A stretch of DNA of 64,000 bases from Roseobacter insulae (lineage in GTDB: Bacteria; Pseudomonadota; Alphaproteobacteria; Rhodobacterales; Rhodobacteraceae): contig NZ_JAHXDN010000001.1 in assembly GCF_019375555.1 (NCBI RefSeq), forward strand, positions 186,001 through 250,000. The letters are read 5' to 3'. Below, piece after piece: positions 23,062 to 39,077 of this stretch; the first letter of the stretch is position 1, and each line of letters begins with the position of its first letter. The translations under genes and the position numbers were made by a program. The notes beneath the pieces were generated by a model. The model had not been told where the DNA came from. It ran no database searches and was given only the letters and a program-made list of their open reading frames with translations.

Positions 23062-24072
23062 ATGCCACCTAAGATATCGGATGTTGCCCGACTAGCCAAC
23101 GTGCACCCGTCGACTGTTTCCCGCGCGCTGGATCCAACAAAACGATCCAGAATTTCTGACGAAATCGTGGCCCGCGTGACCAAGATTGCGAATGACATCG
23201 GTTATCGCCCGAACGCTGTCGCCGCCAGTATGCGGACGGGGTCGACCCGAACGATTGGTGTGGTTGTTCATGATGTTAACGACCCGATTTATCCACCTCT
23301 GATCAAGGGACTTGAAGATGCCGTGCTGGACACTGGGCTCATGGTGATGCTTGGCAATGGCGGGTTCTCGGCCGACCGTGCAAGTGGTCTCGTGGATCGC
23401 ATGATTGCGCGTGCGGTTGACGGCATTGTACTGGCGACAACTGTGCTTGACGATCCGCTTGTGGAGAAGTGCCTTGCGGCCAAGATTCCGACTGTATCGA
23501 TGGTGCGGTATCCGCGCGATGGCAGCGTCACTTCGGTGGTGAACGACTGTGTTTCGGGGATGGAGCAGATGACCCAACATGTCATCGAGTGTGGCCATCA
23601 GCGCGTTGCCTGCATTGCTGGCCCGCAAACTTCGTCCGCGGGGCACAACCGTTTGATCGGGGTTCGATCAAGCCTGCACCGATCAGGGATCGATTTGCCG
23701 CCTGAGTTTCTGAAGATCACAGACCAACCCCGGATGGAGGCAGGATATGCTGCAACGATGGAACTGTTGTCATTGGCGACACCGCCCACTGCAATCATTT
23801 GCGTGAACGATGTTGTAGCGATGGGCGCGATGCGAGCCTGCCGAGAATTGGGAGTTTCCTGCCCGGAAGATGTGTCCATCACCGGGTTCAACAACGTTGC
23901 TTTTACCGAATTCGTAGCCCCTGGACTGACAACTGTGGCGGTTGATTTCCAGCGGATTGGTGATCTTGCCGGTCGCGCTTTGCTGTCAGAAATCGAAGGT
24001 AAATGCCCACAGAAAAATATCCAGACGGTACCTTGTCACGTTGTTTCCCGCGACTCACTCCGCGTGATTTAA
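23062..24072 (+). CDS. LacI family transcriptional regulator
   Basis: I begin at ATG 23062, which places the LacI helix-turn-helix at the N-terminus (KISDVARLANVHPSTVSRAL). The hinge SRISDEIVARVTKIANDIGY and the periplasmic-binding-protein-like core (TIGVVVHDVNDPIYPPLIKG, FNNVAFTEFVAPGLTTVAVD) follow; the product has 336 residues. The ribosome site is weak. It lies just upstream of the TRAP operon whose promoter has a perfect 18-bp palindrome of LacI-site type, and an identical copy lies at 29985, so it probably controls both. Confidence 0.92.
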   Translation: MPPKISDVARLANVHPSTVSRALDPTKRSRISDEIVARVTKIANDIGYRPNAVAASMRTGSTRTIGVVVHDVNDPIYPPLIKGLEDAVLDTGLMVMLGNGGFSADRASGLVDRMIARAVDGIVLATTVLDDPLVEKCLAAKIPTVSMVRYPRDGSVTSVVNDCVSGMEQMTQHVIECGHQRVACIAGPQTSSAGHNRLIGVRSSLHRSGIDLPPEFLKITDQPRMEAGYAATMELLSLATPPTAIICVNDVVAMGAMRACRELGVSCPEDVSITGFNNVAFTEFVAPGLTTVAVDFQRIGDLAGRALLSEIEGKCPQKNIQTVPCHVVSRDSLRVI

Positions 24073-24146: not shown

Positions 24147-24182
24147 TTGACAGGTTAATGTGGCTGTGCAATCGATTGCACA
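24147..24182 (+). promoter_or_regulatory. promoter with LacI-type operator (TRAP operon)
   Basis: TTGACA at 24147-24152 is followed, starting 18 bases from its first base, by the perfect palindrome TGTGCAATCGATTGCACA (24165-24182), which would cover the -10. The central CG pair is typical of LacI-family sites. The same sequence and geometry recur at 29967-30002. Confidence 0.8.
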
Positions 24183-24248
24183 TGATGCGACGCTGGAGGA
24201 ATGATCGCAGCCAACCAAAAAATAGAAGTAGTCTTGGGAGGATTATTC

Positions 24249-25304
24249 ATGAAACGACTTACAAGCCGTGTGGCTGCTATCGCCCTATGCACGATGCCAT
24301 TTACCGCAACCGCAGAAACGCTGGATTTCACGATTGGGTCGCCTTTGGCACCGGTGCTGCCTTGGGTTGGAGCGCTGCCCAACTCGTTTGTTGCAAATGC
24401 CAACACGTACCTTGAGGAAGCGGGCTCGGAGTTGCGCATCGACTGGACAGAAGCCTACTCAGGTACCCTCTACAAATTCCAGGACACCCTGGAGTCTGTT
24501 GAAAGCGGTATTGCGGATGTTGGCTGGGTCGGCACGATCTGGGAAGTCTCCAACATGCCCCTGATGCAAATGACATTCAGTACGCCGTTCGCAAGTCAGG
24601 ATTTGGGCGTGTCGTTGTCGGTTGTGAACGATATCCACCGAGAGATTCCTGAGATGCAGGCCGCTTGGGAAGATTTCAACCAAGTATTCCTTGGTGCAGC
24701 AGGGGTCGAAACCTATCACATCTATTCTGTCGAGCCGATTGAAACGCTGGACGATCTGCAAGGTCTCAAACTCCTCGGCGGTGGAGCCGTGGGCTCATGG
24801 ATTCAAGCCGCCGGTGCCACATGGGTCGAAGGCAGCACGGGAACCTTCTACCAACAAATGCAAACGGGTGTTGCGGATGGCGCAGTGATCATTCTGTCGG
24901 CGGGCTATCCGAACCGGTTCCATGAAGTTGCACCAAACCTCACCTTGGTCGGCCTGGGCGCACAAGTCATCGGGGGCGCAACCATTAACCTTGATCGTTG
25001 GAACGCCATGACCGAGGTCGAGCAAGACGTCTTTCGCCGCCTTGGTGAGGAATACAGCCTTTATAACTCAACCAAAGTTGAGAGCGTTCTCGAGGATTAC
25101 ATGTCCAAGACTATTGCCGAGGGCGGCATCGTGACGGAGATGGCAGATGCGGAAAAACTGCGGTGGGCTGAAGCCATGTCCCATCTTCCGCAACTCTACC
25201 TCGAACAAGGTGGCGACATCGCCTCAAAGGTGCTGAGCGCCTATATGTCCGGTGTTCGTGCTGCTGGGCAGACTCCGCTTGTGAACTGGGACGAGAACCT
25301 CTGA
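24249..25304 (+). CDS. TRAP transporter substrate-binding protein (DctP type)
   Basis: ATG at 24249 follows GGGAGG; 351 residues. A signal peptide (RVAAIALCTMPFTATAETLD) precedes a DctP core with LYKFQDTLESVESGIADVGW, ETLDDLQGLKLLGGGAVGSW and QQMQTGVADGAVIILSAGY. In this family the substrate carboxylate is usually bound by an Arg; I did not confirm which. It feeds the fused permease downstream. It is the first gene of the LacI-type operon. Confidence 0.92.
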   Translation: MKRLTSRVAAIALCTMPFTATAETLDFTIGSPLAPVLPWVGALPNSFVANANTYLEEAGSELRIDWTEAYSGTLYKFQDTLESVESGIADVGWVGTIWEVSNMPLMQMTFSTPFASQDLGVSLSVVNDIHREIPEMQAAWEDFNQVFLGAAGVETYHIYSVEPIETLDDLQGLKLLGGGAVGSWIQAAGATWVEGSTGTFYQQMQTGVADGAVIILSAGYPNRFHEVAPNLTLVGLGAQVIGGATINLDRWNAMTEVEQDVFRRLGEEYSLYNSTKVESVLEDYMSKTIAEGGIVTEMADAEKLRWAEAMSHLPQLYLEQGGDIASKVLSAYMSGVRAAGQTPLVNWDENL

Positions 25305-25366
25305 GAGTTTAGCGTTCGCCGTTAACCAGAGAAATCGCAAACAGTCTATCAATGGGAGATACGCTT

Positions 25367-27361
25367 ATGGGTGAAAAGCCTTCAGGCAAAGCGCGCCTCG
25401 GCGTATTTGTAGCATCTTCTTCAAGCTGCAAAGTGAACAGAGCTCATCGCTACTACGGTGCGTTCACTCAAGGGATCAATAACATCGGGACCCTTTGGAC
25501 CTTCTTTCTGATGGCCCTGATCCTAACGGATGTTTCGGGACGTTTCTTGTTCAACGCACCTTTGGTGGGTGTACCTGAAATAGTCTCGTACTCGATCGTT
25601 GCGATTGTCTTCCTCCAGTTGTCCAATACACTTTTCGTGGGACGCGTGACACAAACGACGCTCTTGTTGGATTATCAAAGACGCGCCGCGCCGATGGCGT
25701 GGCGCGTCTACAACCTTTTCTTTGCGACTATCGGCTTCGTCGTGTTCGTCTTGATCGTGAACGGGACGCTTCCTGTCTTCCTGAAAGCATGGGATCGCGG
25801 GACATTTTTTGGTAATCCTGCCGTGTTTACCGTGCCCCTTTGGCCCGTTTACGGTGTTGTCGTCTTTGGAGCCATGCTTGCCACGATTGAGTACCTGTTC
25901 AAGGCGGTGGTTTTTCTGAAGTCGCGCGCTTCCGAAGATGCGAACGGCCGCGATGTGCCGGCGGTGGGACCGCTTGGCGTTGCGGACTACACGCTGATCG
26001 CAGCGCTCGGCATCTTCTTTTTGGCCTGCATCGCGCTTATCGCGTCTGATCCGTCCCAACTACAGGTGGCTGTCACCTCGATTTTTGGTATCATCCTTCT
26101 AATTTATGCGGGTATGCCCGTTGCGATCTCATTGATCGCGATTTCGCTGCTGGGGATTTACTCGCTGAAAGGGCTGAAGCTGACAATCAGCACATTGGCG
26201 CTTTCGTCGACAGGCACCATCACGGAGTACATCTTTGGTGTCATCCCGCTCTTTGTTTTGATGGGGTTGGTCGTTAATGCGACCGGCGTTGGCAAAGACA
26301 CCTTTAGCGTCGCGCAATGGCTCGTAGGTCGAATCAAGGGTGGTCTGGGCATATCAACCGTATTGGCGAATGCGATCTTTGCTGCCGTGACAGGTGTTTC
26401 GATTGCGTCTGCTGCAGTTTTCACTCGCGTGGCCACGCCCGAAATGATGCGCCACGGCTACAATACGCGGTTTTCTGTTGGTGTGGTCGCGGGATCGTCG
26501 ATCTTGGGAATGCTTATCCCACCGTCCCTCTTGTTGATCGTTTATGCTGTGCTGGCCGAGGTCTCTGTCGGCAGTCTGTTTGTTGGGGCCATTGCGCCGG
26601 GATTGTTGATGGCGGTGTGTTTTGCGCTGGCGATATATTTGATGGCCAGGTTCACACCCAAGGCGATCTTTGACCGAGAAGCGCCCCTTGCAGAGGCTGA
26701 GCACATGACTGCGGCAACAGCTATGCTCATGATAACTCCCATTGCCATGTTGATACTTGTTGTGCTGGGCGGGATATATGGCGGGGTTTTCACGCCAACC
26801 GAAGCTGGAGCCGCTGGTGCGTTTGGTGCCATTCTCATTGGAGTTCTGAAGCGACGGCTGTCTTTCAAAAGCCTTTGGCGCGTGATGGTTGAGACTGGCC
26901 ATATCTCTGTCAGCATTCTGTTCATGGTTATCGCGGCATCGGTCTACGGGCGTTTGCTGACCTTCACTGGCATCCCCAACGATATCGGCCATTGGGTGGC
27001 CGCTGCAGATCTTGGTCTACTCAGCTTCTTGATGATCTATTTGCTGATTATCGTGTTGATGGGGATGTTGCTCGATTCCGTGTCGATCATGCTTATCCTA
27101 TTGCCCCTTGCCGTTCCGATTGCTTCGCTGCTTGGAGCAGATCTCATTTGGTTTGGTATCCTGACCGTAATCGCCGTTGAGGTCGGGTTACTGACACCGC
27201 CCCTCGGTATGGCGGTCTTCGTGGTCCATTCGACGCTGGACAGGGCTACCAATATCTCGGTTGGCGATATCTTCGTGGGTACATTCCCCTTCGTCATCGT
27301 GATGTTGCTGGTGACAGGCCTTTTAATTGCGTTTCCGCAAATCGTACTCTTCGCGCTTTAA
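25367..27361 (+). CDS. TRAP transporter fused small-large permease (DctQ-DctM)
   Basis: ATG 25367 has GGGAGA ten bases upstream, better than the ATG at 25352. The 664-residue protein combines a DctQ-like N-terminal 4-TM part (LTDVSGRFLFNAPLVGVPEI) with a full DctM permease (IFGVIPLFVLMGLVVNATGV, SILGMLIPPSLLLIVYAVLA, EVGLLTPPLGMAVFVV). The fusion is known for some DctQM systems. It is unrelated in close sequence to the TAXI permease at 17444. Confidence 0.92.
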   Translation: MGEKPSGKARLGVFVASSSSCKVNRAHRYYGAFTQGINNIGTLWTFFLMALILTDVSGRFLFNAPLVGVPEIVSYSIVAIVFLQLSNTLFVGRVTQTTLLLDYQRRAAPMAWRVYNLFFATIGFVVFVLIVNGTLPVFLKAWDRGTFFGNPAVFTVPLWPVYGVVVFGAMLATIEYLFKAVVFLKSRASEDANGRDVPAVGPLGVADYTLIAALGIFFLACIALIASDPSQLQVAVTSIFGIILLIYAGMPVAISLIAISLLGIYSLKGLKLTISTLALSSTGTITEYIFGVIPLFVLMGLVVNATGVGKDTFSVAQWLVGRIKGGLGISTVLANAIFAAVTGVSIASAAVFTRVATPEMMRHGYNTRFSVGVVAGSSILGMLIPPSLLLIVYAVLAEVSVGSLFVGAIAPGLLMAVCFALAIYLMARFTPKAIFDREAPLAEAEHMTAATAMLMITPIAMLILVVLGGIYGGVFTPTEAGAAGAFGAILIGVLKRRLSFKSLWRVMVETGHISVSILFMVIAASVYGRLLTFTGIPNDIGHWVAAADLGLLSFLMIYLLIIVLMGMLLDSVSIMLILLPLAVPIASLLGADLIWFGILTVIAVEVGLLTPPLGMAVFVVHSTLDRATNISVGDIFVGTFPFVIVMLLVTGLLIAFPQIVLFAL

Positions 27362-27376
27362 CTCAAGGACACTCAA

Positions 27377-27658
27377 ATGCTTTACGTTATCCACGCTTTG
27401 GATCATCCAAACATGATCAACACACGCGCCTTGCACATCGATGCGCATCGGGCTTACGCCAAAGCTGCTACAACAATTGAGATCGCGATTTCAGGCCCGA
27501 TGCTGGCGGACAATGGCACCGATATCATCGGTTCGTTGCTGATCGTAGAGGCTCCGGACCGGGCTACGGCGGAGGATTTCGCCAACAACGACCCGCTGAA
27601 CAAAAAAGGTATCTGGCGTCAATTGGATATCACCGCCTTCAACCGCCGTGTCGGCTAG
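27377..27658 (+). CDS. YciI-like protein
   Basis: A 93-residue YCII-related protein: MLYVIHALDHPNMINTRALH at the N-terminus, then AYAKAATTIEIAISGPMLAD and a DRATAEDFANNDPLNKKGIW segment. The conserved His-Asp pair of the family seems to be present (D9, and His of AHRAY). These ferredoxin-like proteins are linked to muconolactone isomerase-type chemistry but are mostly uncharacterised. AAGGAC precedes the ATG. It is in the TRAP operon. Confidence 0.85.
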   Translation: MLYVIHALDHPNMINTRALHIDAHRAYAKAATTIEIAISGPMLADNGTDIIGSLLIVEAPDRATAEDFANNDPLNKKGIWRQLDITAFNRRVG

Positions 27659-27679
27659 GCCTTAGTAAGGAGTGATGCC

Positions 27680-28687
27680 ATGAAAGTAGCCGTTATTGGT
27701 CTTGGGTGGTGGGGCAAGCAGATCGTGACATGCCTTGAACCGAGCCCGCATCTTGATGTGACCCATGGGGTTGATATGGATCTGGAGGCCGTTGCACCTT
27801 TTGCGCTAGCGCATGATCTCGTCCTACTTAACAGTCTTGAGGCCGTTCTGGCGCACCCTGACGTGGATGGTGTTATCCTTGCGACACCCCATTCACTGCA
27901 CGAGCAGCAGGTTCTGGCATGTGTGAACGCAGGCAAACAGGTCTTTTGTGAGAAACCTTTGGCGCTGAAGAAGGAAAGCGTCGATCGGATGCTGGCGCTG
28001 TGTCATGAAAAGGGGGTTGTTCTCGGCGTTGGCCATGAGAGACGCTATGAGCCCGCGATGGAGCACATCGCGCGACTGTTGCAAGACGGGACTATCGGAA
28101 CGCTGCTTGCGATGGAAGCGAACTTCAGCCACGACAACTTCAAAAAGTTCACCGGAACCAATTGGCGGCTTAACAAGGCTGATAGTCCCGCTGGAGCGAT
28201 GACAGCATTGGGTATCCACCTCACTGATATGTTCATCTCTCTGGCGGGACCGGTGCGAACCGTTTGGGCACAAACTGCAAGCCGTTCCTTTCAGGAACCT
28301 GCGGTCGATGTCGTCAGTGTCCTGCTGACCTTTGAGAGCGGGGTAACCGCGACGATGACCTGCCTGTCCAGCACGCCGTTTTATGGGCGGTTCACCGTGT
28401 TCGGAGACAAGGCTTGGGCTGAGTTGACCGAAATTTCGAATGTTGACGTCGATGACCCTGCGACAGTTGTGGTGCGCAAGGATGACGGTACCCGGGATGT
28501 GTTTGAATACGAGGCGATAAACACGGTTCTGGCCAACTTTGAAGCTTGGGCCGCCGCAGTGGAAAACCGCGCTGACTACCGTTTCACGGATGTGGAGAAA
28601 GCCCACAACGTGGAGATCCTCGAAGCGATTACACGCTCTGCGCACTCCGGTCGTCCTATTGAACTGGGGCGTGTCCATGGCGCTTAG
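27680..28687 (+). CDS. Gfo/Idh/MocA family oxidoreductase
   Basis: A 335-residue dehydrogenase with an N-terminal Rossmann domain (KVAVIGLGWWGKQIVTCLEP) and the diagnostic EKP motif in GKQVFCEKPLALKKESVDRM. The C-terminal domain includes LGIHLTDMFISLAGPV with the likely catalytic His. It would oxidise a sugar, inositol-like polyol or related compound with NAD(P). AAGGAG precedes the start. It overlaps the next gene by 11 bases. Confidence 0.92.
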   Translation: MKVAVIGLGWWGKQIVTCLEPSPHLDVTHGVDMDLEAVAPFALAHDLVLLNSLEAVLAHPDVDGVILATPHSLHEQQVLACVNAGKQVFCEKPLALKKESVDRMLALCHEKGVVLGVGHERRYEPAMEHIARLLQDGTIGTLLAMEANFSHDNFKKFTGTNWRLNKADSPAGAMTALGIHLTDMFISLAGPVRTVWAQTASRSFQEPAVDVVSVLLTFESGVTATMTCLSSTPFYGRFTVFGDKAWAELTEISNVDVDDPATVVVRKDDGTRDVFEYEAINTVLANFEAWAAAVENRADYRFTDVEKAHNVEILEAITRSAHSGRPIELGRVHGA

Positions 28688-29462
28688 ATTCGCGGCAAAC
28701 ATCCACTTTCTCTACCTCGAATATGATTTTCTTGATCGGTTTAAGGCCGCTGCGGACGACGGGTTCGAGGGGATCGAGATGACCTTCCCATACGACGTGA
28801 CCGCCGAGAAAACTGCACGCGCAGCGGCAGCGGCGGGCCTGCCGATTGTGGAATTTAACACTCCAGCGGGCGATCTTATACCCGGCAAACACCGGGGCCA
28901 TGCGCCTAATCCAGGCGAAGGGGACATCTTTCTGAAGCATATCCAGAAAGGGGCCCGTTACGCGCGCGATGTTGGATGCCGTAAGGTGCTGACGCTTTCA
29001 GGTCTGAAGCGGCCTAACATCGCGTTTGCGGACCAACGGGCGTGTTACATAGACAACCTCAAGCGCGGAGCGGAGCTGTGCGCGAGCTATGACACCAAAC
29101 TTTTGATCGAGCCGAACAACGTTGTCGATTTTCCCGGATACTTCCTTGAGACTATGGCTGACGTGCGCGCCTACATCGCCGCCGTGGATCACCCCAACCT
29201 CGGCGCTGTGTTCGACTTCTTTCATTCGCAGATCAACGAAGGTGACGTCACGCGGTGCTTTTCCGACAGCCTTGACCTGATCGACCATGTTCAGTTTGGC
29301 GATAATCCTGGCCGGCATGAGCCTGGTACCGGGGAATTGAACTTCGACCACCTGTTCAACGTGGTCGAAAACAGCGGCTACACCGGCTGGGTCGGCGCCG
29401 AGTACTTTCCCAGCGGCGCCTCCACGCACGCAAGTCTTGATTGGCTACGTCGCAGGCAGTGA
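28677..29462 (+). CDS. hydroxypyruvate isomerase-like TIM-barrel protein
   Basis: I take ATG 28677 (MALRFAANIHFLYLEYDFLD), within the end of the preceding gene, giving 261 residues, the size of Hyi/OtnI proteins. Metal-binding stretches include LLIEPNNVVDFPGYFLE, VFDFFHSQINEGDV and HVQFGDNPGRHEPGTGELNF. The family isomerises hydroxypyruvate/tartronate semialdehyde or 2-oxo-tetronates. It ends the TRAP operon and is convergent with the DMT gene 13 bases away. Confidence 0.88.
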   Translation: MALRFAANIHFLYLEYDFLDRFKAAADDGFEGIEMTFPYDVTAEKTARAAAAAGLPIVEFNTPAGDLIPGKHRGHAPNPGEGDIFLKHIQKGARYARDVGCRKVLTLSGLKRPNIAFADQRACYIDNLKRGAELCASYDTKLLIEPNNVVDFPGYFLETMADVRAYIAAVDHPNLGAVFDFFHSQINEGDVTRCFSDSLDLIDHVQFGDNPGRHEPGTGELNFDHLFNVVENSGYTGWVGAEYFPSGASTHASLDWLRRRQ

Positions 29463-29475
29463 TCCATATCCGATG

Positions 29476-29937
29476 CTACCGGCCTGCATTGGCCACAACA
29501 GGCAGGTTGAACACCACCACACCAGCCACCACCAAAATCAGTCCGGCAACGCGGTTCAGCGTCAGCATGCGCATCTCTGTGCCGAACAGCCCGAAATGGT
29601 CTGCGAGGGCTGCGCCAAGCGTCATGCCGCAAAGAAAAACTACGATATACGCCGCGCCACCGATCTTTGCCACAGTCACGACAGAACCGAGGACGAAAAT
29701 CGCGCCGATCACTCCTCCTAAGAAACTCCACTTGGGAACATCCGCCAAGCCGCCAAGCCGCAGCGTTCCCGATACCAACGCAAAGCACAACAAGATCGAC
29801 CCTGTTAGAATCGCCGAGACAACAGAACTGGAAATGGCGCTCCCCAAACGTCGCGCGAGGTCGGCGTTAATGATCGGCTGCCATGCCACGACAACACCGA
29901 TCGCTACTCCAACCAGAGAAAATATAGCAAATTTCAT
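29476..29937 (-). CDS. DMT family transporter (YdcZ/DUF606 type)
   Basis: A 153-residue membrane protein of about five hydrophobic helices, starting FAIFSLVGVAIGVVVAWQPI. The NADLARRLGSAISSSVVSAI and GGAAYIVVFLCGMTLGAALA blocks are typical of the YdcZ branch of the drug/metabolite transporter superfamily. It is transcribed away from the bicupin gene and shares the 91-base region that contains the LacI-type operator, so it may belong to the same regulon. Confidence 0.85.
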   Translation of the reverse strand: MKFAIFSLVGVAIGVVVAWQPIINADLARRLGSAISSSVVSAILTGSILLCFALVSGTLRLGGLADVPKWSFLGGVIGAIFVLGSVVTVAKIGGAAYIVVFLCGMTLGAALADHFGLFGTEMRMLTLNRVAGLILVVAGVVVFNLPVVANAGR

Positions 29938-29966
29938 GTGTTAGGACCCTTCACCAAAAATGCATA

Positions 29967-30002
29967 TTGACCGTACTAGATAGATGTGCAATCGATTGCA
30001 CA
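29967..30002 (+). promoter_or_regulatory. promoter with second LacI-type operator (bicupin operon)
   Basis: TTGACC at 29967-29972 and the perfect palindrome TGTGCAATCGATTGCACA at 29985-30002 repeat the geometry of the TRAP promoter exactly (18 bases from start to start). Confidence 0.8.
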
Positions 30003-30028: not shown

Positions 30029-30910
30029 ATGAAAAAGTATTTTGTGGGCCGGGTGAACGGCGCGGATTTTTGCACTCCTGCCGCTTACCACGGGCGGTCT
30101 GAAGGGTATGTCTGCAATGCCTTGATCGGTGCAGAAACCAACCCGGCCTGTGTTCTGACGGGAGTCGGCCTGGTGCGGATCGCGCCGGCGGGGGGGCACG
30201 ACCCTGTATTCCACGCGTTTGAAAAGGGCTTCTACATTTTGAAGGGCGAGGTCGTGCTTGAGTTTCACGGACGCGCACACCGCCTGAAAGAAGGCCACTA
30301 CGGAGTGATCCACAAGGCGGTTCCCTATACGTTGCACAATCCCGGTGACGGAGAATGCGAAATCCTCGAGATGTGCGCCCCGCAGCCAAAGGCCGAGGAT
30401 CACAGCTTCACCGACACCTTCTTTCGCAGCGGTTCACGCAGCAAAGACGCACCAGTGGTTGACTTGGAAGATCCGACAATCAAATTTCTTGGCTTCCTGC
30501 CCAATGAAAACATGAAGGCCGATGGCGAGAGCATTTCTGCGGTGGGCGTACGCTCTTCTTCAATTTGGGGGATCAGCCTGAAGGAGCTGGTCGACCGTAT
30601 GCTAGGGGCCGAACATCAGGCGTTGTTCATGGTACAATTCGCGCCCGGCGGTGCGGGCACAACCCACGATCACCCACTCGAAGAGATCTACTTCATCATG
30701 TCAGGTCAGGCGAAGGCAACGCTGGACGGGGAAGAGTTCATCGTCGGGCCGGGCGATTATGTTTGGACCGGGGTTGGCTGCTTTCATCAGTTTGAATGCT
30801 ACGGCGACGAGCCTGTGCGTTGGATCGAGACGCAGGCGCCTTTGCCCGCCGGCTTCGAGACCTTCAGATTTCGTCGTGAGTGGGACCCACTCGCGACCGC
30901 AACTTCCTAA
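30029..30910 (+). CDS. bicupin protein
   Basis: ATG at 30029 follows GGGAGGG; the product has 293 residues with two cupin domains. The first has GLVRIAPAGGHDPVFHAFEK and KEGHYGVIHKAVPYTLHNPG; the second has VQFAPGGAGTTHDHPLEEIY and GPGDYVWTGVGCFHQFECYG with a full His/His/Glu/His metal set. The layout resembles ureidoglycine aminohydrolase (AllE) and similar bicupins, but no other purine gene is near. It is the first gene of the second LacI-type operon. Confidence 0.87.
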   Translation: MKKYFVGRVNGADFCTPAAYHGRSEGYVCNALIGAETNPACVLTGVGLVRIAPAGGHDPVFHAFEKGFYILKGEVVLEFHGRAHRLKEGHYGVIHKAVPYTLHNPGDGECEILEMCAPQPKAEDHSFTDTFFRSGSRSKDAPVVDLEDPTIKFLGFLPNENMKADGESISAVGVRSSSIWGISLKELVDRMLGAEHQALFMVQFAPGGAGTTHDHPLEEIYFIMSGQAKATLDGEEFIVGPGDYVWTGVGCFHQFECYGDEPVRWIETQAPLPAGFETFRFRREWDPLATATS

Positions 30911-30925
30911 ACTCGGAACCTTTCC

Positions 30926-31453
30926 ATGACCGTTACTGCTGCTCCTACCACGCCAAAGGCACTCAATCACATCGGCATCGTTGTCGATGACATCCATCGC
31001 GCAATCGAATGGTACGGTGAAGTGATGGGCTTTCGCCTAATTATGGGGCCGCGCACCCTCAAGCCACAGGCAGCTGCGACCGCCGAAACCGGCAACATTT
31101 TCGATGCGCGATTCAAGGAAGCGCTTCAGGCGCATCTGGTGACAGGCAACAGCATCGGTCTTGAGTTGTTCCAATTCGTCGAACCAGTGTCTGTGCGCAG
31201 CCATGATGGGCTCAAAGATTATGAACACCCCGGCTATTTCCACATCTGTTTCACCGATCCCGACATCGAGGGCCTGGCACAGCGGATTGTGGCCACAGGC
31301 GGAAAGATGCGGACCCCCGTCTTTGAGTTCATCCCGGGGACGGATCGCAAGCTGGTCTATTGCGAGGATCCGTTTGGAAACATCATCGAACTTTTCTCTC
31401 ACACGTATGAGCAAACGTTCGCGAATTGGCCTTTGGAAGGCCAGGTCACTTAA
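30926..31453 (+). CDS. VOC family (glyoxalase/dioxygenase-like) protein
   Basis: A 175-residue protein beginning ALNHIGIVVDDIHRAIEWYG, a classical vicinal-oxygen-chelate motif with the metal His. The second half carries HPGYFHICFTDPDIEGLAQ and KLVYCEDPFGNIIELFSH with the ligands His and Glu. It may be an isomerase, lyase or dioxygenase; the substrate is unknown. It lies 15 bases after the bicupin gene. Confidence 0.9.
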   Translation: MTVTAAPTTPKALNHIGIVVDDIHRAIEWYGEVMGFRLIMGPRTLKPQAAATAETGNIFDARFKEALQAHLVTGNSIGLELFQFVEPVSVRSHDGLKDYEHPGYFHICFTDPDIEGLAQRIVATGGKMRTPVFEFIPGTDRKLVYCEDPFGNIIELFSHTYEQTFANWPLEGQVT

Positions 31454-31476: not shown

Positions 31477-32349
31477 ATGAAAATCGGATTTATCGGCTTG
31501 GGGACGATGGGCGGCGGTATGGCTGCCAATATCCTCGAAGCGGGCCTGAGCCTGACAGTTTACAACCGAACTGAGGCAAAGGCGAAAGCCTTGGTTGATA
31601 AAGGGGCCACGTTCGCGGCGACGATCGCGGACCTAGGTGACTGCGATGTCGTGGTCACAATGGTATCGGACGACAAGGCAATCTCTGCGATCTGTTTTGA
31701 TGGCGGGCTTGTCGATGCAATGAAGCCCGGCGCAATTCATTTGTCATCCTCTACGGTCAGCGTGCAAATGGCCCGCAAACTTGAAGCCGCACATGCAGAG
31801 GCTGGTCAGGTTTTGGTCTCGGCGCCAGTGAACGGGCGCGGGGATCTGGCGGCTGCGGGCAACTTGTTCGTGATTTCTGCAGGACCCTCGGAGGCGCGGG
31901 CCACCTGCGCGCCAGTCTTCGATGCAATCGGTCAGAAAACCCTCGACTTCGGGGCGGATCAGGTCGCTGCCGTTGTGGTGAAACTGGCGGTGAACTGCAT
32001 GATTGCGGACAGCATCGGGGTCATGGCCGAAGCCTACAACATGGTCGAGCGTTGGGGCGTCGACAAGACCGCCTTCCACGCCTTCATCTCCAACGGGTTG
32101 TTCGGAGCGCCGATCTTCAAGATTTACGGGGCCATGATCGCGGAGGACACCTATCAGCCCGCAAACTTCCCGGTCCCGCTGGGATTGAAAGACGTCAACC
32201 TAGCCGTGGCTGCGGGCGAAGAGGTGAATATGCCGATGCCGATCGCATCTTCGGTGCGCAACGGGCTGCTGATGGCACTCGCGCAGGGCTTGGAAGCGGA
32301 AGACTGGTCCGTTCTGAGCAAAGCCACATCCAATTCCCTGAAGCCGTGA
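31477..32349 (+). CDS. beta-hydroxyacid dehydrogenase (3-hydroxyisobutyrate dehydrogenase family)
   Basis: ATG 31477 has AAAGGA eight bases upstream. The 290-residue product starts KIGFIGLGTMGGGMAANILE, the NAD(P) loop, and contains VSAPVNGRGDLAAAGNLFVI and the catalytic Lys segment VVVKLAVNCMIADSIGVMAE. It oxidises a 3-hydroxyacid or reduces a semialdehyde such as tartronate semialdehyde, which would link it to the Hyi-like protein. The canonical substrate-binding GGxxGA stretch is here GRGDLAA. Confidence 0.9.
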   Translation: MKIGFIGLGTMGGGMAANILEAGLSLTVYNRTEAKAKALVDKGATFAATIADLGDCDVVVTMVSDDKAISAICFDGGLVDAMKPGAIHLSSSTVSVQMARKLEAAHAEAGQVLVSAPVNGRGDLAAAGNLFVISAGPSEARATCAPVFDAIGQKTLDFGADQVAAVVVKLAVNCMIADSIGVMAEAYNMVERWGVDKTAFHAFISNGLFGAPIFKIYGAMIAEDTYQPANFPVPLGLKDVNLAVAAGEEVNMPMPIASSVRNGLLMALAQGLEAEDWSVLSKATSNSLKP

Positions 32350-32358
32350 GGATTGCAC

Positions 32359-32895
32359 ATGACCCACTCCGTTGGAACCACATACGACATGACCGAAAAA
32401 GCCAGCGACACGCCCATGTTCGAGGTCATCTTTGATGTTCAGGCAAAGGCTGTTGGGAAGATGCGGGCCGAAATGCGAATCGAAGCGTTCGAGCCTTTCA
32501 AATCGGTCAATCATCTTGCGATTGACGAAGGGACCTTTCAAGGCGGCGAAGGCACCGCGCCTACACCCCTTGAATTTTTCCTAACTGGGTTTGCGGGCTG
32601 CTTGATGGTTCAAATCAAAGCCTTCGCCAAGAAGAAACGCATTCAGATCGACGCTCTGGATGTGCAGCTCAAGGCGAAATGGGAAGCACATAAGGGTGTC
32701 CATGTCCCCTATATAGGCGCCCCCGTCGGGTTCGAGTTGTTCATAGACATCGACAGCCCATCGTCCGAAGCCGAGATCCAGGAGTTGGTCAAATCTGCCC
32801 AGCTTGGCTGCTTTGTCGAGCAGACGATGGCGCAGATCAATTCCATTGGACACACCGTCCGAAAATCCGGCGGCGACTGGGTCGAACTGACCTGA
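32359..32895 (+). CDS. OsmC family protein
   Basis: I use ATG 32359 behind TGAGG (a TTG two codons upstream is possible); the product has 178 residues. It has TPLEFFLTGFAGCLMVQIKA and AQLGCFVEQTMAQI, giving the two Cys of the OsmC/Ohr peroxidase fold. Such proteins reduce organic hydroperoxides or bind thiol-reactive compounds. Its place in a catabolic operon suggests that a reactive intermediate is made here. Confidence 0.88.
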   Translation: MTHSVGTTYDMTEKASDTPMFEVIFDVQAKAVGKMRAEMRIEAFEPFKSVNHLAIDEGTFQGGEGTAPTPLEFFLTGFAGCLMVQIKAFAKKKRIQIDALDVQLKAKWEAHKGVHVPYIGAPVGFELFIDIDSPSSEAEIQELVKSAQLGCFVEQTMAQINSIGHTVRKSGGDWVELT

Positions 32896-32956
32896 ACCCA
32901 CAGACCCAAAACGCAGCCCTCAAAAGAGCGGATTGCGAGCAATAGAGGAAGAAAAA

Positions 32957-34255
32957 TTGTCCAGAGCTCTTACCCCGAATGTTCTTCAACCCGTTGATCT
33001 CGAACCAAACTGGCGATGGGAGGGCAAGCTACCAGCCTTTGGCCATTCTTCGGTAGATTTTGAACGCCGGATCGATCACGACCGTCTGCGCAGGTATCGT
33101 CTGAGCCGGACGCGCGAGGCGCTCAAGGCGTCCGATTGCGGTACGCTGCTGCTGTTTGACGTGAACAATATTCGTTACGTCTCCGCCACAAAAATCGGCG
33201 AATGGGAGCGTGACAAGATGTGTCGCTTTTGTCTACTGACCGGCGATGACAGCCCCTATGTCTGGGATTTTGGTTCCGCCGCTGTGCACCACCAGAAATA
33301 CTCGGACTGGCTGGTACCCGATCACTGTCGCGCCGGGGTCGTCGGGATGCGTGGAACAATCCCGCCAAGCTTTGGGCTGATGAAACGCTATGCCGAAGAG
33401 ATCGCGGGGCTGATCCGCGATGCAGGAATGATCGACATGCCCGTGGGTGTGGACTACGCCGAAACCGCTATGTTTCATGCGCTCAAAGAGGCAGGTCTGA
33501 ACGTGGTTGACGGGCAGCAGATCATGCTTTCGGCGCGCGAGATCAAGAACTGGGACGAAATCCAGCTTCTGACTCAAGCCGCCAGCATGGTCGATGGTGT
33601 TTACCACATGATTTATGAGGAGCTAAAGCCAGGCGTGCGCGAGAACGAGATCGTCGCGATGTCCAACAAACTGCTCTATGAGTGGGGCTCGGACGATGTC
33701 GAGGCAATCAATGCCGTTTCGGGGGAGCGGTGCAACCCGCACCCACACAATTTCACAGACCGCATGTTCCGCCCCGGCGATCAGGCCTTCTTTGACATTC
33801 TGCAAAGCTATCAGGGGTATCGGACCTGCTACTACCGAACGTTTAACATAGGAATGTCTACGCCATCGCAGGTGGATGCCTATACCAAAGCGCGCGAATG
33901 GATTGATGTGTCCATTGCCGCAATCAAGCCCGGTGTCACTACGGATCAGGTTGCGAAACTTTGGCCCAAGGCAGAGGAATTTGGCTTCCCCGATGAGCTG
34001 TCAGCCTTTGGGCTCCAGTTTGGCCACGGTCTAGGTTTGGCACTTCACGAGCGTCCGATCATCAGCCGCGCGATCAGTCTCGAAAACCCGATGGAAATCA
34101 AAACGGGTATGGTGTTCGCGCTGGAAACCTATTGCCCGGCGACGGACGGCTATTCCGCTGCGCGGATCGAGGAAGAAGTGGTTGTCACGGACACGGGTTG
34201 CGAGGTGATATCGCTCTTTCCAGCCCAGGAACTGCCGATCGCAAACCGATACTGA
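32957..34255 (+). CDS. M24 (creatinase/Xaa-Pro peptidase fold) family enzyme with altered metal site
   Basis: TTG at 32957 has AGAGGAAG just upstream and gives 432 residues (frame open from 32933). N-terminal creatinase domain LLLFDVNNIRYVSATKIGEW; C-terminal pita-bread domain with FGHGLGLALHE (His), FALETYCP (Glu) and ARIEEEVVVT (Glu). The first metal Asp is in AFFDILQSY, but the second, usually SDxTRTF, reads GYRTCYYRTF, with Cys in the Asp position. The N-terminal part recalls the DMSP lyase DddP, yet the DddP metal residues are not all kept. Function is unknown; a hydrolase or lyase on a small molecule is likely. Confidence 0.87.
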   Translation: MSRALTPNVLQPVDLEPNWRWEGKLPAFGHSSVDFERRIDHDRLRRYRLSRTREALKASDCGTLLLFDVNNIRYVSATKIGEWERDKMCRFCLLTGDDSPYVWDFGSAAVHHQKYSDWLVPDHCRAGVVGMRGTIPPSFGLMKRYAEEIAGLIRDAGMIDMPVGVDYAETAMFHALKEAGLNVVDGQQIMLSAREIKNWDEIQLLTQAASMVDGVYHMIYEELKPGVRENEIVAMSNKLLYEWGSDDVEAINAVSGERCNPHPHNFTDRMFRPGDQAFFDILQSYQGYRTCYYRTFNIGMSTPSQVDAYTKAREWIDVSIAAIKPGVTTDQVAKLWPKAEEFGFPDELSAFGLQFGHGLGLALHERPIISRAISLENPMEIKTGMVFALETYCPATDGYSAARIEEEVVVTDTGCEVISLFPAQELPIANRY

Positions 34256-34268
34256 TCCTCCCCGACTT

Positions 34269-34297
34269 ACCCGGTCCTTCGGGACCGGGTGCCTTTC
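34269..34297 (+). terminator. strong UUCG hairpin between M24 and E1-alpha genes
   Basis: ACCCGGTCC and GGACCGGGT (9-bp perfect stem) close a TTCG tetraloop, followed by a short T-rich stretch (GCCTTTCT). It could be a partial terminator or an RNA-stability element separating the front of the operon from the dehydrogenase genes. Confidence 0.65.
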
Positions 34298-34312
34298 TCA
34301 TGGAGTGGCCCA

Positions 34313-35299
34313 ATGCCCGCAAAGTCCAAGACCCCGTCCAACACCGAATCCTATTTGCAGATGTACCGCCAAATGGTGCGCATTCGGGCCTTTGAAGATC
34401 AGGCCAACAAGCTGTATCTATCCGCCAAGATGCCAGGTCTGACCCACATGTATTCGGGCGAAGAGGCCGTCGCCGTCGGTATCTGTGAAGCGTTGACCAA
34501 CGAAGACCGCATCACCTCGACTCATCGCGGCCATGGCCATTGCGTCGCCAAGGGCGCTGACTTCAAAGCGATGTTCTGTGAACTCCTTGGCAAAGAAGAA
34601 GGCTATTGCCGCGGCAAAGGGGGATCGATGCATATCGCCGATCAAAGCCATGGAAATCTTGGAGCGAATGCAATTGTGGGTGGTTCGATGGGGATCGCCA
34701 CGGGCTCTGCGTTGCGGGCAAAATTGCAAGGCTCCGATGATGTGACCGTGTGCTTTTTCGGCGATGGGGCGACCGCTCAAGGCCTTATGTATGAGGTCAT
34801 GAACATGGCGGCGCTCTGGAAACTGCCCGTGATATATGCCTGCGAGAACAACGGTTACTCGGAATACACAAAGACCGAAGAAATTGCCGCAGGCTCGATC
34901 ACCGCGCGCGCTGAAGCCTTCGGGATAGAAGCGTTCAAGGTTGATGGTCAGGACGTACTGGCAGTGAACGATCTGAGCCAAAGCCTCGTTGCGCGCTGCC
35001 GAAAGGGCGAGGGGCCGTTCTTCATTGAGCTTGAAACGTACCGCTACCATGGCCACCACGTTGGCGACATCAACCGTGAGTACTATCGGTCCAAAGAAGA
35101 AGAGACCGATTGGAAAACAAATCGCGATCCGATCACGCGCTTCCGCGCGACCTTGTTGGAGCAGGGGATCGTCACAGAGGAACAGGTCGAAGCGATCAAT
35201 GCCGAGATCGCTCAGGATGCAGCCGATGCTGTCGCCTATGCGCTTGAGGCTCCGTACCCGGACGTCTCCGAAGTTGACATGCACGTTTATGCGGCCTGA
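34313..35299 (+). CDS. 2-oxoacid dehydrogenase E1 alpha subunit (PDH/acetoin type)
   Basis: ATG 34313 is preceded by GGAG at seven bases; the frame is open from a GTG at 34289 within the hairpin. The 328-residue protein binds thiamine diphosphate: HMYSGEEAVAVGICEALTNE, HRGHGHCVAKGA, GSMHIADQSHGNLGANAIVG and the GDGATAQGLMYEVMNMAALW/ENNGYSEYT metal-cofactor motif. The short form and sequence resemble acetoin dehydrogenase or plant-type PDH E1 alpha. It is followed 12 bases later by E1 beta. Confidence 0.92.
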   Translation: MPAKSKTPSNTESYLQMYRQMVRIRAFEDQANKLYLSAKMPGLTHMYSGEEAVAVGICEALTNEDRITSTHRGHGHCVAKGADFKAMFCELLGKEEGYCRGKGGSMHIADQSHGNLGANAIVGGSMGIATGSALRAKLQGSDDVTVCFFGDGATAQGLMYEVMNMAALWKLPVIYACENNGYSEYTKTEEIAAGSITARAEAFGIEAFKVDGQDVLAVNDLSQSLVARCRKGEGPFFIELETYRYHGHHVGDINREYYRSKEEETDWKTNRDPITRFRATLLEQGIVTEEQVEAINAEIAQDAADAVAYALEAPYPDVSEVDMHVYAA

Positions 35300-35311: not shown

Positions 35312-36307
35312 ATGCGCGAGATAACTTTATCTAAAGCCGTGAACGAAGCGTTGGCGGAAGAGATGCGTCGTGACCCGACGGTCTTGATTCTAGGCGAAGA
35401 CGTTGCCGAGGCCGGAACGCCTTTCAAGGTCATGTCTGGTCTGGTTGAGGAATTTGGAACCGAGAGAGTGATCGACACACCTATTTCCGAGCCAGGCTTT
35501 GTTGGAATGGCCGTCGGTGCCGCGATGACCGGCGCACGCCCTGTCGTTGACCTGATGTTCGGTGACTTTCTGTTTTTGATAATGGACCAGCTTTGCAACC
35601 AGGCCGCCAAAACCCACTACATGTCCGGTGGAAAACTCAACGTTCCGATGGTTCTTCGTACCAACCTTGGTGCAACCCGGAGGTCAGCCGCGCAGCACAG
35701 CCAGTCCTTGCAGGCGTTGGTTGCCCATATTCCGGGTCTCAAAGTGGCCATGCCCTCTTCGGCCTATGAGGCCAAGGGTTTGATGAAGACCGCCATCCGT
35801 GACAACAACCCGGTGGTCATTTTCGAAGACAAGCTGATGTACCAGGACAAGGCCCCCGTGCCGGAGGAAGAATTTCTGATCCCGTTCGGCGAGGCCCACG
35901 TGAAGCGCGAAGGCAGCGATATTACGCTCATCGCAACTTCCTCGATGGTGCAGGTGGCCGAAGGGGTTGCCGATCTTCTTGAGACTGAAGGCGTCTCGGT
36001 TGAAGTCATCGATCCTCGGACGATTGTGCCACTAGATGAAGACACGCTGCTTAAGAGCGTGCGCAAAACATCTCTCGCGATTGTCATCGATGAGGGCCAC
36101 CAGAGCTACGGCGTGACGGCGGAGATCGCCAGCCGCCTGAATGAGAAATCGTTCTACCATCTTGATGCTCCGGTGCAGCGGATGGGCGCAATGGACGTGC
36201 CGGTGCCGTTCTCCCCGGCGCTTGAAGACGTGACGGTGCCGACGGTTGAAACCGTTGCGCAAACCGCTCGAAAACTGATCGCGCGTGAGATGTTCGATGC
36301 CGCATGA
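35312..36307 (+). CDS. 2-oxoacid dehydrogenase E1 beta subunit
   Basis: A 331-residue transketolase-like beta chain: TVLILGEDVAEAGTPFKVMS with the thiamine Glu, RVIDTPISEPGFVGMAVGAA, MVLRTNLGATRRSAAQHSQS and VIDEGHQSYGVTAEIASRL. GAGGAGAG precedes the ATG. With E1 alpha it decarboxylates a 2-oxo acid or cleaves acetoin, passing the acyl group to the lipoyl domains of the next gene. The end overlaps the next start by 11 bases. Confidence 0.93.
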   Translation: MREITLSKAVNEALAEEMRRDPTVLILGEDVAEAGTPFKVMSGLVEEFGTERVIDTPISEPGFVGMAVGAAMTGARPVVDLMFGDFLFLIMDQLCNQAAKTHYMSGGKLNVPMVLRTNLGATRRSAAQHSQSLQALVAHIPGLKVAMPSSAYEAKGLMKTAIRDNNPVVIFEDKLMYQDKAPVPEEEFLIPFGEAHVKREGSDITLIATSSMVQVAEGVADLLETEGVSVEVIDPRTIVPLDEDTLLKSVRKTSLAIVIDEGHQSYGVTAEIASRLNEKSFYHLDAPVQRMGAMDVPVPFSPALEDVTVPTVETVAQTARKLIAREMFDAA

Positions 36308-37637
36308 TGTGACGATGCCTCAGCTTGGCATGGCTCAGGATGCCGGCACGATTGTGTCATGGCTCAAAGACGAAGGGGCCGAAGTTGCTGAGGGTGACCT
36401 GCTGTTCGAGGTCGAAACCGACAAAGCCACGCTGGAGGTCGAAGCATTGGCCAGTGGGTTCTTGACTAACATCGCGGCCACTGTTGGTGAGGAAGTTGCA
36501 GTTGGTGCGGTTATTGCGCGCATTTCCGAGACCGCCGCAGACACCGAAGATGCTGCGCCGGGGCAAGCCAGTCCCGCTCCAGTAGAAGCGCCAGCGGAAA
36601 AACCTGCCGGCACCCATGTCGCCATGCCCCAATTGGGCATGGCCCAAGATGCAGGCCTCCTTGTCGCTTGGCACAAACGGCCGGGCGACGCTGTCTCCGC
36701 GGATGACATTTTGTTTGAGGTCGAAACCGACAAAAGCACGATGGAAGTTGAGGCGGGCATTGATGGTTTTCTGGCGGCGACCTTCGCCCATGCCGGAGAG
36801 AACGTCCTTGTCGGGGAAACGGTCGCAATTATCTCCTCCACCTCGCCGTCCGAACCCTTTGCTTCAGCGGTCACAGAAAGCGTATCCGGTGCCGTGCCCA
36901 AGACTGCACCCGAAGAACCGAGCGCAGATGCGGTCGCATCCCCCGCAGCGCCGCCTATCACTCAGGCTCAGGCGCCTGTGACGCCGCAACCGCCGCGCGC
37001 CCGTGCCAGCCAAAACGGCAGGATATTGGCGTCGCCCAAGCTTCGCCGCCTTGCAGCAGCGGAAAACCTCGATCTGGCGCTCTTGGCTGATGCTGGTCAT
37101 CTGCACCCCTACCACACGCGCGATCTTGAGACTTTGCGGCGTTTGTCGCTGGAAGCAGCGCAAGAAACCACACCTTCTGTTGCGACAGCGTCGGTCCACC
37201 TCGTTGCCGAGACAGCGGTAGATGGCTCTCATGCCATCGCGGAATGGGCCGCATCAACACACGGTGTTTCGGCCCGACGCTGTTTGGCCAGCCTTTTCGC
37301 CGGTGCCTTGCACGAGGACGCCCCTTTTTCTGTCGCAGTGGAAACACGGCAGGGACGCGAAACCTATCTTGTCTCGAAAGCATCAGGGTTTTCGCAAGTC
37401 GTACCAAGCGACGAGGACCCTATCTGGGTTCTGCGTGACTACCGTGGCAGCAGATTGAAAACGGTCGCATTGGGGGCCGAGGCGCATCCGGTGGTCACGC
37501 TGACTGATCTGCCGACGAGCGGCGGTGTGCGCATCACACTGGAAAGTGCACCTAACCGCATCACACCATCCGAAGCGCTCATGCTCATCACAACTTTTGC
37601 GGATTGTATCGAAGAACCGCTGCGGCACATTTTGTAA
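36297..37637 (+). CDS. E2 component without a functional catalytic domain: two lipoyl domains plus subunit-binding domain
   Basis: ATG 36297 gives 446 residues. Two tandem lipoyl domains carry the lipoylated Lys in VETDKATLEVEA (K43) and VETDKSTMEVEA (K146). After an Ala/Pro linker comes a subunit-binding domain (RILASPKLRRLAAAENLDLA). The C-terminal part, ending SALMLI-like SEALMLITTFADCIEEPLRH, keeps only remnants of an acyltransferase fold: no DHRxxxG and no catalytic His is visible. The missing acyltransferase is encoded separately at 39087, so the E2 function seems split in two. Confidence 0.88.
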   Translation: MPHDVTMPQLGMAQDAGTIVSWLKDEGAEVAEGDLLFEVETDKATLEVEALASGFLTNIAATVGEEVAVGAVIARISETAADTEDAAPGQASPAPVEAPAEKPAGTHVAMPQLGMAQDAGLLVAWHKRPGDAVSADDILFEVETDKSTMEVEAGIDGFLAATFAHAGENVLVGETVAIISSTSPSEPFASAVTESVSGAVPKTAPEEPSADAVASPAAPPITQAQAPVTPQPPRARASQNGRILASPKLRRLAAAENLDLALLADAGHLHPYHTRDLETLRRLSLEAAQETTPSVATASVHLVAETAVDGSHAIAEWAASTHGVSARRCLASLFAGALHEDAPFSVAVETRQGRETYLVSKASGFSQVVPSDEDPIWVLRDYRGSRLKTVALGAEAHPVVTLTDLPTSGGVRITLESAPNRITPSEALMLITTFADCIEEPLRHIL

Positions 37638-37652
37638 CCACTCGAGGACCCC

Positions 37653-39077
37653 ATGGAATTCACGAACCTTTATATCAATGGCACTTGGGTCGAGAGCACG
37701 GATCGTTTTGACGTTTATAACCCGGCAACCGAAGAGATCCTGGCCTCGGTTGCCTCGGCGGAAACATTCCACGCCGATCTCGCTCTTGATGCGGCTCAAA
37801 GCGCCATGGCCGACTGGGCCGCGCGCACGCCGCGCGCCCGTTCCGAAGTGCTGCGCAAGGCGTGGGAGCTGATGTCGGCGCAGCTTGATGAGTTTGCGCG
37901 TATCATCACGCTTGAGAACGGCAAGGCTCGTGCAGACGCGATGGGCGAGGCCACCTATGCCGCCGAGTTTTTCCGCTGGTTTGCCGAAGAAGCCGTGCGT
38001 GCAGACGGACTCATCACCCATGCGCCAGCATCCGGCGCCCGCATTATGGTTCAGCACAAGCCCGCTGGTTTGGCTGTCTTGGTGACGCCATGGAATTACC
38101 CGGCCGCCATGGGCACGCGCAAGATTGCGCCCGCACTGGCCGCAGGATGCGGCGTGATCATCAAGCCCGCGTCCGAGACGCCGCTGACCATGCTTGCCCT
38201 GATGCCGCTTTTGGAAGAGGCCGGTGTGCCCAAAGGGCTCGTCAACGTGCTGCCCTCACGGCGGACCGGTCCGCTGGTCGATCACTTGATGCATGATCCG
38301 CGCGTTCGCGTGATCAGTTTTACAGGCTCAACCGGCGTTGGTCGGGTTTTGCTTAAATCCGCCGCCGATCAGGTGCTCAAGCCCGCTATGGAGCTGGGCG
38401 GAAATGCACCCGTGGTGATCTTGGAGGATGCCGATCTCGACGTTGCAATCGAAGGCACGATGTTGGCGAAAATGCGTAATCTGGGAGAGGCCTGCACCGC
38501 AGCCAACAGGATTTACGTCCACGAGAACATTGTGGACGAATTCACTAAGCGGCTTTCCGCTGAAATGTCTTCGCTGAAGGTTGGCAATGGCACCGACCCA
38601 ACCGTGGATGTCGGTCCCTTGGTTAACGCCGACACCCGCGACAAGGTCGCCGCGTTTGTTGCCGACGCTGTGGCAAAAGGCGCGAAGCTGGAATGCGGCG
38701 GTGAAGTGCCAAGCGGAAAGGGGTTCTTTTACCCACCTACGGTGTTGTCTGCAGTGCCCGAAACAGCTGATTGTGTGCATGATGAAATCTTTGGTCCTGT
38801 CGCCGCGATTCAGACGTTCGCGGAGGAGCAAGACGCGATCACCCGCGCGAACAACACGGAATATGGTCTCGTGGCCTACGTGTTTTCCAGTGACTTCAAG
38901 CGCGGTTTGCAAGTCTCTGAACAACTTGATTACGGCATGGTCGGCCTGAACCGTGGCCTTGTCAGCGACCCAGCGGCTCCCTTTGGCGGCACAAAGCAGT
39001 CCGGATTAGGACGCGAGGGCGGGCATGAAGGCATGCTAGAGTTCATGGAGACGCAGTATATTTCGGCCGAGTGGTAG
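37653..39077 (+). CDS. aldehyde dehydrogenase, succinate-semialdehyde type
   Basis: A 474-residue NAD(P)-dependent aldehyde dehydrogenase. Conserved parts: TPWNYPAAMGTRKIAPALAA, ISFTGSTGVGRVLLKS, ELGGNAPVVILEDADLD (general-base Glu) and the Cys of RNLGEACTAANRIYV. The end PFGGTKQSGLGREGGHEGML is typical of GabD-like members. GAGGA precedes the ATG. The operon suggests oxidation of a semialdehyde, but the exact substrate cannot be read from sequence. It separates the two E2 genes. Confidence 0.92.
   Translation: MEFTNLYINGTWVESTDRFDVYNPATEEILASVASAETFHADLALDAAQSAMADWAARTPRARSEVLRKAWELMSAQLDEFARIITLENGKARADAMGEATYAAEFFRWFAEEAVRADGLITHAPASGARIMVQHKPAGLAVLVTPWNYPAAMGTRKIAPALAAGCGVIIKPASETPLTMLALMPLLEEAGVPKGLVNVLPSRRTGPLVDHLMHDPRVRVISFTGSTGVGRVLLKSAADQVLKPAMELGGNAPVVILEDADLDVAIEGTMLAKMRNLGEACTAANRIYVHENIVDEFTKRLSAEMSSLKVGNGTDPTVDVGPLVNADTRDKVAAFVADAVAKGAKLECGGEVPSGKGFFYPPTVLSAVPETADCVHDEIFGPVAAIQTFAEEQDAITRANNTEYGLVAYVFSSDFKRGLQVSEQLDYGMVGLNRGLVSDPAAPFGGTKQSGLGREGGHEGMLEFMETQYISAEW

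Follow-up and report, generated by a model that had tools for sequence, protein, structure and literature searches.

According to PMC4052901, LacI-type regulators act on even palindromes in 1251 of 1303 cases, with CG at the centre in 1173, and more than 75% of their sites lie 140 to 30 bp upstream of the start. Within the TVSR subgroup, Arg at AA-20 pairs with G at NT-6, and residues AA-15 and AA-16 determine NT-5 and NT-4, AA-16 most strongly (PMC2978694). Here, we describe a locus of Roseobacter insulae in which a LacI-type gene is accompanied by two identical palindromes, one ahead of a five-gene TRAP transport operon and the other ahead of a ten-gene catabolic operon. The locus lies in a stretch of 64,000 nucleotides (contig NZ_JAHXDN010000001.1, positions 186,001 to 250,000), referred to as the window. 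Its sequence argues that the local LacI repressor controls both operons through the two palindromes, a reading to which we give a probability of about 85%. The regulatory elements are as follows.

23062 to 24072, plus strand: lacI-type repressor gene, 336 aa, helix-turn-helix (HTH) and sugar-binding-type sensor domain (Pfam LacI, Peripla_BP_3)
24147 to 24152, plus strand: −35-like TTGACA of the TRAP operon (motif position)
24165 to 24182, plus strand: operator 1, TGTGCAATCGATTGCACA (exact match; window and genome scans)
29967 to 29972, plus strand: −35-like TTGACC of operon 2 (motif position)
29985 to 30002, plus strand: operator 2, identical to operator 1 (exact match; window and genome scans)

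The two exact copies of the 18-bp TGTGCAATCGATTGCACA agree at 18 of 18 positions, lie 5.8 kb apart and begin at 24165 and 29985, where the original prediction had placed them; counted from the first base of its TTGAC(A/C) box (TTGACA at 24147, TTGACC at 29967), each starts 18 bases on, as predicted. The sequence is an even palindrome with 9 of 9 half-site matches and CG at its centre, as expected of a LacI-family operator. Operator 1 starts 92 bases past the lacI stop and lies 66 bases ahead of the dctP start, and operator 2 is positioned 26 bases ahead of the bicupin start and 47 bases from the start of a divergent DMT gene. Measured from the centre of each site, the distances to the start codons are about 75 and 35 bases, in the range typical of LacI-family operators. 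No third copy with up to three mismatches occurs in the window (expected 0.04), and none of 100 dinucleotide shuffles of the window contained two or more such matches. Many unrelated copies in the genome had been named beforehand as a finding that would speak against a regulon; the whole-genome scan (4,882,487 bases, 17 contigs, up to three mismatches) returned nothing beyond the two sites and 0 for a reversed control pattern, and the regulon was left standing. Among 19 genomes of the genus, the operator (up to one mismatch) was found in one, that of R. insulae itself.

The protein encoded at 23062 has the architecture of the family, with a LacI HTH (PF00356) at the N-terminus (45.3 bits, cut-off 27) and a C-terminal Peripla_BP_3 sensor domain (9.2e-36). 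All 18 NCBIfam models that match it do so under their cut-offs, including the equivalogs of the named groups (CytR 207/436, lactose_RbsR model 201/382, RbsR 192/531, PurR 176/501, CcpA 159/442), and its best solved relatives are RbsR and PurR. Alignment to PurR places TVSR in the recognition helix, Ala at AA-51 and Met for the usual Leu at AA-54, in keeping with the family. Counting from the centre, the operator shows G at NT-6, alongside the TVSR of the protein, and C-A at NT-5/NT-4, alongside Pro-Ser at AA-15/AA-16 by alignment. Ser occupies AA-16 in 8 of 9 aligned proteins (Ala in L020), and this prevalence fits the C-A found in the cores. The GCAA half-site also belongs to the PurR operator. 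Looping by a LacI tetramer was set aside, as the protein stops shortly beyond its sensor domain and 5.8 kb separate the two sites; E. coli LacI carries a tetramerisation tail, which the protein here seems to lack.

The core of the operator, GCAAnCGnTTGC, is present at 13 places in the genome versus 6 for its reversed control, and five of the 13 carry the 12-base core GCAATCGATTGC, namely the two operators and three places inside open reading frames. The loci of the 13 other LacI-type genes of the genome (about 1.5 kb on each side, about 3.1 kb in all) do not contain GCAATCGATTGC (0/13). A search of 295 family genomes (E≤1e-60, up to seven candidates scored per genome) yielded eight non-self LacI relatives of 34–46% identity, and in 128,440 bp of their loci the exact GCAAnCGnTTGC occurs 11 times, in four of the eight; the best of 255 other half-sites reached 5, and 11 halves of the same composition gave 0 or 1. 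In five of the eight loci a core with at most one mismatch is positioned within 350 bases upstream of lacI, with two or three exact cores each in L019, L020 and L021 and a one-mismatch core in L017 and L018. TRAP loci served as controls: dctP matches were obtained in 101 of 295 family genomes at E≤1e-35, and 10 of the 14 best-ranked non-self dctP places were taken (G092, G296, G083 and G101 skipped; 191,524 bp; dctP relatives 36–48% identical). None of the ten holds a LacI relative (tblastn, E≤1e-6) or an exact core, and in the 350 bases ahead of dctP none has a core even when one mismatch is allowed. A core upstream of lacI in 5/8 loci versus upstream of dctP in 0/10 indicates that the motif follows the LacI protein and not the transporter. 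By this comparison of sequences, the core motif is associated with the LacI subgroup of the 23062 protein. Separately, another LacI gene of this genome (G000:C12:149132 and C12:153448; L077, L078) seems to own a matching site pair, TTTGCAACCGGTTGCAAA, upstream of that LacI gene and, judged by eye, of a Gfo/Idh-like gene.

A link between the two operons is provided by one comparison with one genome, G117 (locus L014), where the closest LacI relative is the last gene of a run OsmC-dctP-dctQ-dctM-lacI, all in one direction. Identities to the proteins here are 45–46% for LacI, 33% for dctP, 35% for dctQ, 48% for dctM and 49% for OsmC. The operator of this run, TGCGCAAACGTTTGTGCA on the coding strand, has a one-mismatch core; 26 bases separate its end from the OsmC start, and both this gap and the next letters, AGTTAT, are as at the bicupin gene here. 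No TTGAC box stands 18 bases ahead of the G117 operator, and no second clean copy of it was found in G117. The run differs in being a single gene run with one operator, versus two operons here, and the locus in having a sugar-type ABC transporter nearby (by eye) and no bicupin relative. As OsmC lies in operon 2 and TRAP in operon 1 of the window, the G117 run places genes from the two operons behind a single operator.

In the mechanism that we propose, a LacI dimer would bind each 18-bp palindrome and mask the −10 part of a TTGAC-type promoter, blocking transcription of two operons, TRAP (dctP to the TIM barrel) and catabolic (bicupin to E2); the predicted effect is repression, not activation. 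Given a spacer of 17–18 bases, the operator would enclose the −10 hexamer. The inducer would be a small molecule, probably either the substrate brought in or a product of its breakdown, that binds the sensor domain and releases LacI, and release from both operators would induce uptake and catabolism together. The genes concerned, with the divergent DMT gene and a hairpin in operon 2, are listed below.

24249 to 25304, plus strand: dctP, TRAP solute-binding protein, operon 1 gene 1 (Pfam DctP)
25358 to 27361, plus strand: dctQM, fused TRAP permease (Pfam DctQ and DctM)
27377 to 27658, plus strand: YciI-like protein (Pfam YCII)
27680 to 28687, plus strand: Gfo/Idh/MocA oxidoreductase (family match; inositol 2-dehydrogenase model under cut-off)
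28677 to 29462, plus strand: xylose-isomerase-like TIM barrel, hydroxypyruvate / 2-oxo-tetronate isomerase-like, operon 1 gene 5 (under equivalog cut-offs)
29476 to 29937, minus strand: DMT_YdcZ transporter, divergent, regulon membership unproven (Pfam)
30029 to 30910, plus strand: bicupin, operon 2 gene 1 (two Cupin_2 stretches)
30926 to 31453, plus strand: VOC/glyoxalase-fold protein (family match)
31477 to 32349, plus strand: 3-hydroxyisobutyrate/tartronate-semialdehyde-type dehydrogenase (under equivalog cut-offs)
32353 to 32895, plus strand: OsmC-like protein, whose homologue heads the TRAP-lacI run in G117 (family match)
32933 to 34255, plus strand: M24 hydrolase, first gene of a block recurring in the family (resembles DddP far under cut-off)
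34268 to 34291, plus strand: 10-pair hairpin in the M24/E1-alpha gap (stem search)
34313 to 35299, plus strand: 2-oxoacid dehydrogenase E1 alpha (start set by paralogue comparison; frame open from 34289)
35312 to 36307, plus strand: 2-oxoacid dehydrogenase E1 beta (family match)
36300 to 37637, plus strand: lipoyl-domain protein, two lipoyl domains, no catalytic domain by Pfam (Pfam)
37653 to 39077, plus strand: aldehyde dehydrogenase, succinate-semialdehyde type (family match)
39087 to 39962, plus strand: separate E2 acyltransferase catalytic domain, operon 2 gene 10 (family match)

Operon 1 comprises five genes with gaps of at most 53 bases and one overlap, and operon 2 ten genes with gaps of at most 57 bases; from these short intergenic gaps each group is predicted to form one transcript. 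At this locus, isomerase and dehydrogenase relatives point to sugar acids as a possible substrate. The M24 protein scores 113.6 bits against the 600 required by the NCBIfam equivalog of DddP, a dimethylsulfoniopropionate lyase, and so falls short of that assignment. At two loci with dctP/dctQM relatives of 46–48% identity and no LacI (L136, L137), the neighbours resemble genes of aromatic-acid catabolism, by eye only.

The last six genes of operon 2 correspond, in the same order, to an M24-E1-lipoyl-aldehyde dehydrogenase-E2 block found in the family. M24, E1 alpha and E1 beta are adjacent in 16 of 17 fetched M24 loci, which represent 16 of the 45 other M24-matching genomes and the second copy of the R. 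insulae genome itself. The family block differs in carrying no exact LacI core in the 17 loci, save one inside the M24 gene of L059. The second M24-E1-lipoyl-aldehyde dehydrogenase block (L062, G000:C1:56001-76000) has an M24 protein 86% identical to that of operon 2 and, unlike it, sits beside a sugar-type ABC transporter (by eye). Also encoded beside this block is a protein that combines a solute-binding domain with a MarR-like HTH match below threshold; near the G117 LacI locus lies a gene for a similar solute-binding protein that lacks the HTH match. The E2 of operon 2 seems to be split between the protein of 36300 to 37637, with its two lipoyl domains, and the catalytic protein of 39087 to 39962; tblastn matches to both were obtained in 12 of the 17 loci. 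The contigs of L052 (G092:C11) and L053 (G183:C42) begin with M24 and end within or just past E2, so that their ends almost coincide with those of the block, as might happen where a second, nearly identical copy interrupts the assembly; G092 and G183 each have, in addition, a LacI relative located at the edge of a contig.

The hairpin at 34268 to 34291 has 10 pairs and a TTCG loop and occupies the gap between M24 and E1 alpha (34256 to 34312). It was compared across 15 loci, the window and 14 of the 17 M24 loci (L054, L055 and L068 left out). A stem of at least eight pairs is present in this gap in 13 of the 15 (window, L052, L053, L056, L058–L065 and L067), with unlike sequences, and absent from it in L057 and L066; elsewhere in the block, no gap gave a stem of more than six pairs. 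Chance alone yields longer stems in longer gaps, yet two lipoyl/aldehyde dehydrogenase gaps of 55–59 bases give stems of 4. The hairpin is possibly a conserved terminator, attenuator or processing site.

Other explanations of the site pair have to be set against control by the neighbouring LacI. A LacI-family protein encoded elsewhere could bind the operators, given that the genome holds 14 LacI-type HTH genes and another of them has a related core, GCAACCGGTTGC, near its gene. However, GCAATCGATTGC is missing from all 13 other loci, the closest other LacI gene on the contig is about 198 kb off (C1:12197), and it is relatives of the neighbouring LacI that carry the core; we consider a distant binder unlikely. 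The end of lacI just 92 bases from operator 1, together with the 13 loci free of GCAATCGATTGC, favours the 23062 protein. The same two copies might descend from a recent promoter duplication, with only one site functional. Compared in register over 40 bases, the upstream flanks share 19 positions, above the random mean of 10.2 and reached by 0.3% of 20,000 random pairs, and the downstream flanks share 15, a value that 6.8% of random pairs attain. The similarity of the flanks is modest: the operators are 18/18 identical while both flanks agree at less than 50%, and one would not expect a copy without use to remain a perfect palindrome, which makes such a duplication decidedly improbable. CRP sites have TGTG/CACA ends and N6 spacing, and the palindrome shares those ends, as might suit a regulator of another type such as a CRP/FNR-type activator. 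Its spacing, TGTGC-N8-GCACA, does not match, and a CRP-type site was rejected on that ground; a global activator, moreover, would be expected at many promoters, and the genome has only two copies. The even, CG-centred palindrome is instead the LacI pattern (PMC4052901), and a regulator of another type seems very improbable indeed.

A further possibility keeps the same LacI and sites and extends the regulon to the divergent DMT (YdcZ) gene, with operator 2 serving both directions. The 47 bases to the DMT start, within an intergenic space of 91 bases, are in the usual range of LacI sites, and a TTGCAC on the minus strand inside operator 2 could act as a −35 box (by eye). Against this, the promoter scan lists no consensus promoter on the DMT strand, though it misses the plus-strand promoters too, and no DMT gene was noticed beside LacI relatives in the loci read, where no search was aimed at DMT. 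Dual control by operator 2 is possible, if somewhat doubtful. The original prediction had united the TRAP operon, the bicupin-to-E2 operon and perhaps the DMT gene in one regulon; the part that holds is a LacI with operators before the two operons and a core tied to its subgroup, while for DMT there is a compatible distance only.

Several observations weigh against control of both operons by the local LacI. At neither promoter is there a recognisable −10 box, and an E. coli-type consensus scan lists neither; the scan returned two promoter-like sites in the region versus 7.9 in shuffles, so this consensus is a poor guide here. Autoregulation, seen in 72% of studied LacI regulators and as such common but not obligatory (PMC4052901), has no counterpart at this locus: no site occurs upstream of lacI, nor any further site at up to three mismatches in the window or genome, and the locus departs in this from the commonest LacI arrangement. 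The LacI relatives compared are only 34–46% identical and stand mostly beside other genes. Among them, L015 (LacI 43–44% identity) has no core, the one-mismatch core of L014 precedes the gene run that ends in lacI and is not directly upstream of lacI, and the exact core of L016 is intergenic, about 1 kb from the lacI end and likewise not directly upstream. One-mismatch cores occur somewhere in five of the ten control loci and at six places in the window besides the operators, so that such matches away from promoters mean little. The full cluster is found in one genome only, with the bicupin in 1 of 295 family genomes (E≤1e-40), and in 18 other genus genomes none of the 15 candidates scored per genome matched lacI, dctP or the bicupin gene at the DNA level; confined as it is, the site pair itself cannot be footprinted. 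Finally, the hairpin at 34268 interrupts operon 2 and may lower or uncouple E1-E2 expression; equal control down to E2 is not to be assumed, and the regulon may have a boundary within operon 2.

Within the genus, the TRAP permease gene has matches in G011 and G014, and the M24 gene in several genomes. A class-wide search with LacI at E≤1e-65 returned 1 of 385 genomes, R. insulae itself, with no further relative, and a bicupin scan of genome contigs gave one weak locus, 24% identical. On plasmids, 32 records have LacI relatives, with the 15 among the matches listed all below 39% identity, and four have bicupin relatives of 31–33%, in Streptomyces and Rhodococcus; neither of two plasmid neighbourhoods viewed resembles the LacI/TRAP/bicupin locus by annotation, and a near-identity search of plasmids gave no match. 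No literature on the pathway or the exact operator was found among open-licence PubMed Central papers.

The shared operator joins 15 genes in one predicted regulon and so indicates which enzymes the transporter supplies; finding what induces the repressor offers a direct way to the substrate. One of two copies of the recurring M24/E1/E2 block sits under a new regulator. We tentatively suggest that the operators could mark an undescribed inducible pathway built of modules, in which a TRAP transporter and LacI switch captured a diverged second M24/2-oxoacid-dehydrogenase block, and that the regulon would then define a substrate class without a known route.

Compared with local repressors of the RbsR/CytR/PurR kind, the system shares the domain architecture and hinge helix of the protein, the even CG-centred palindrome, and a site near the promoter of adjoining transport and catabolic genes. 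It differs in that the protein scores under the cut-offs of all 18 NCBIfam models that match it and that two identical sites lie 5.8 kb apart with none upstream of its own gene. The predicted regulon is ordinary in kind and new in place.

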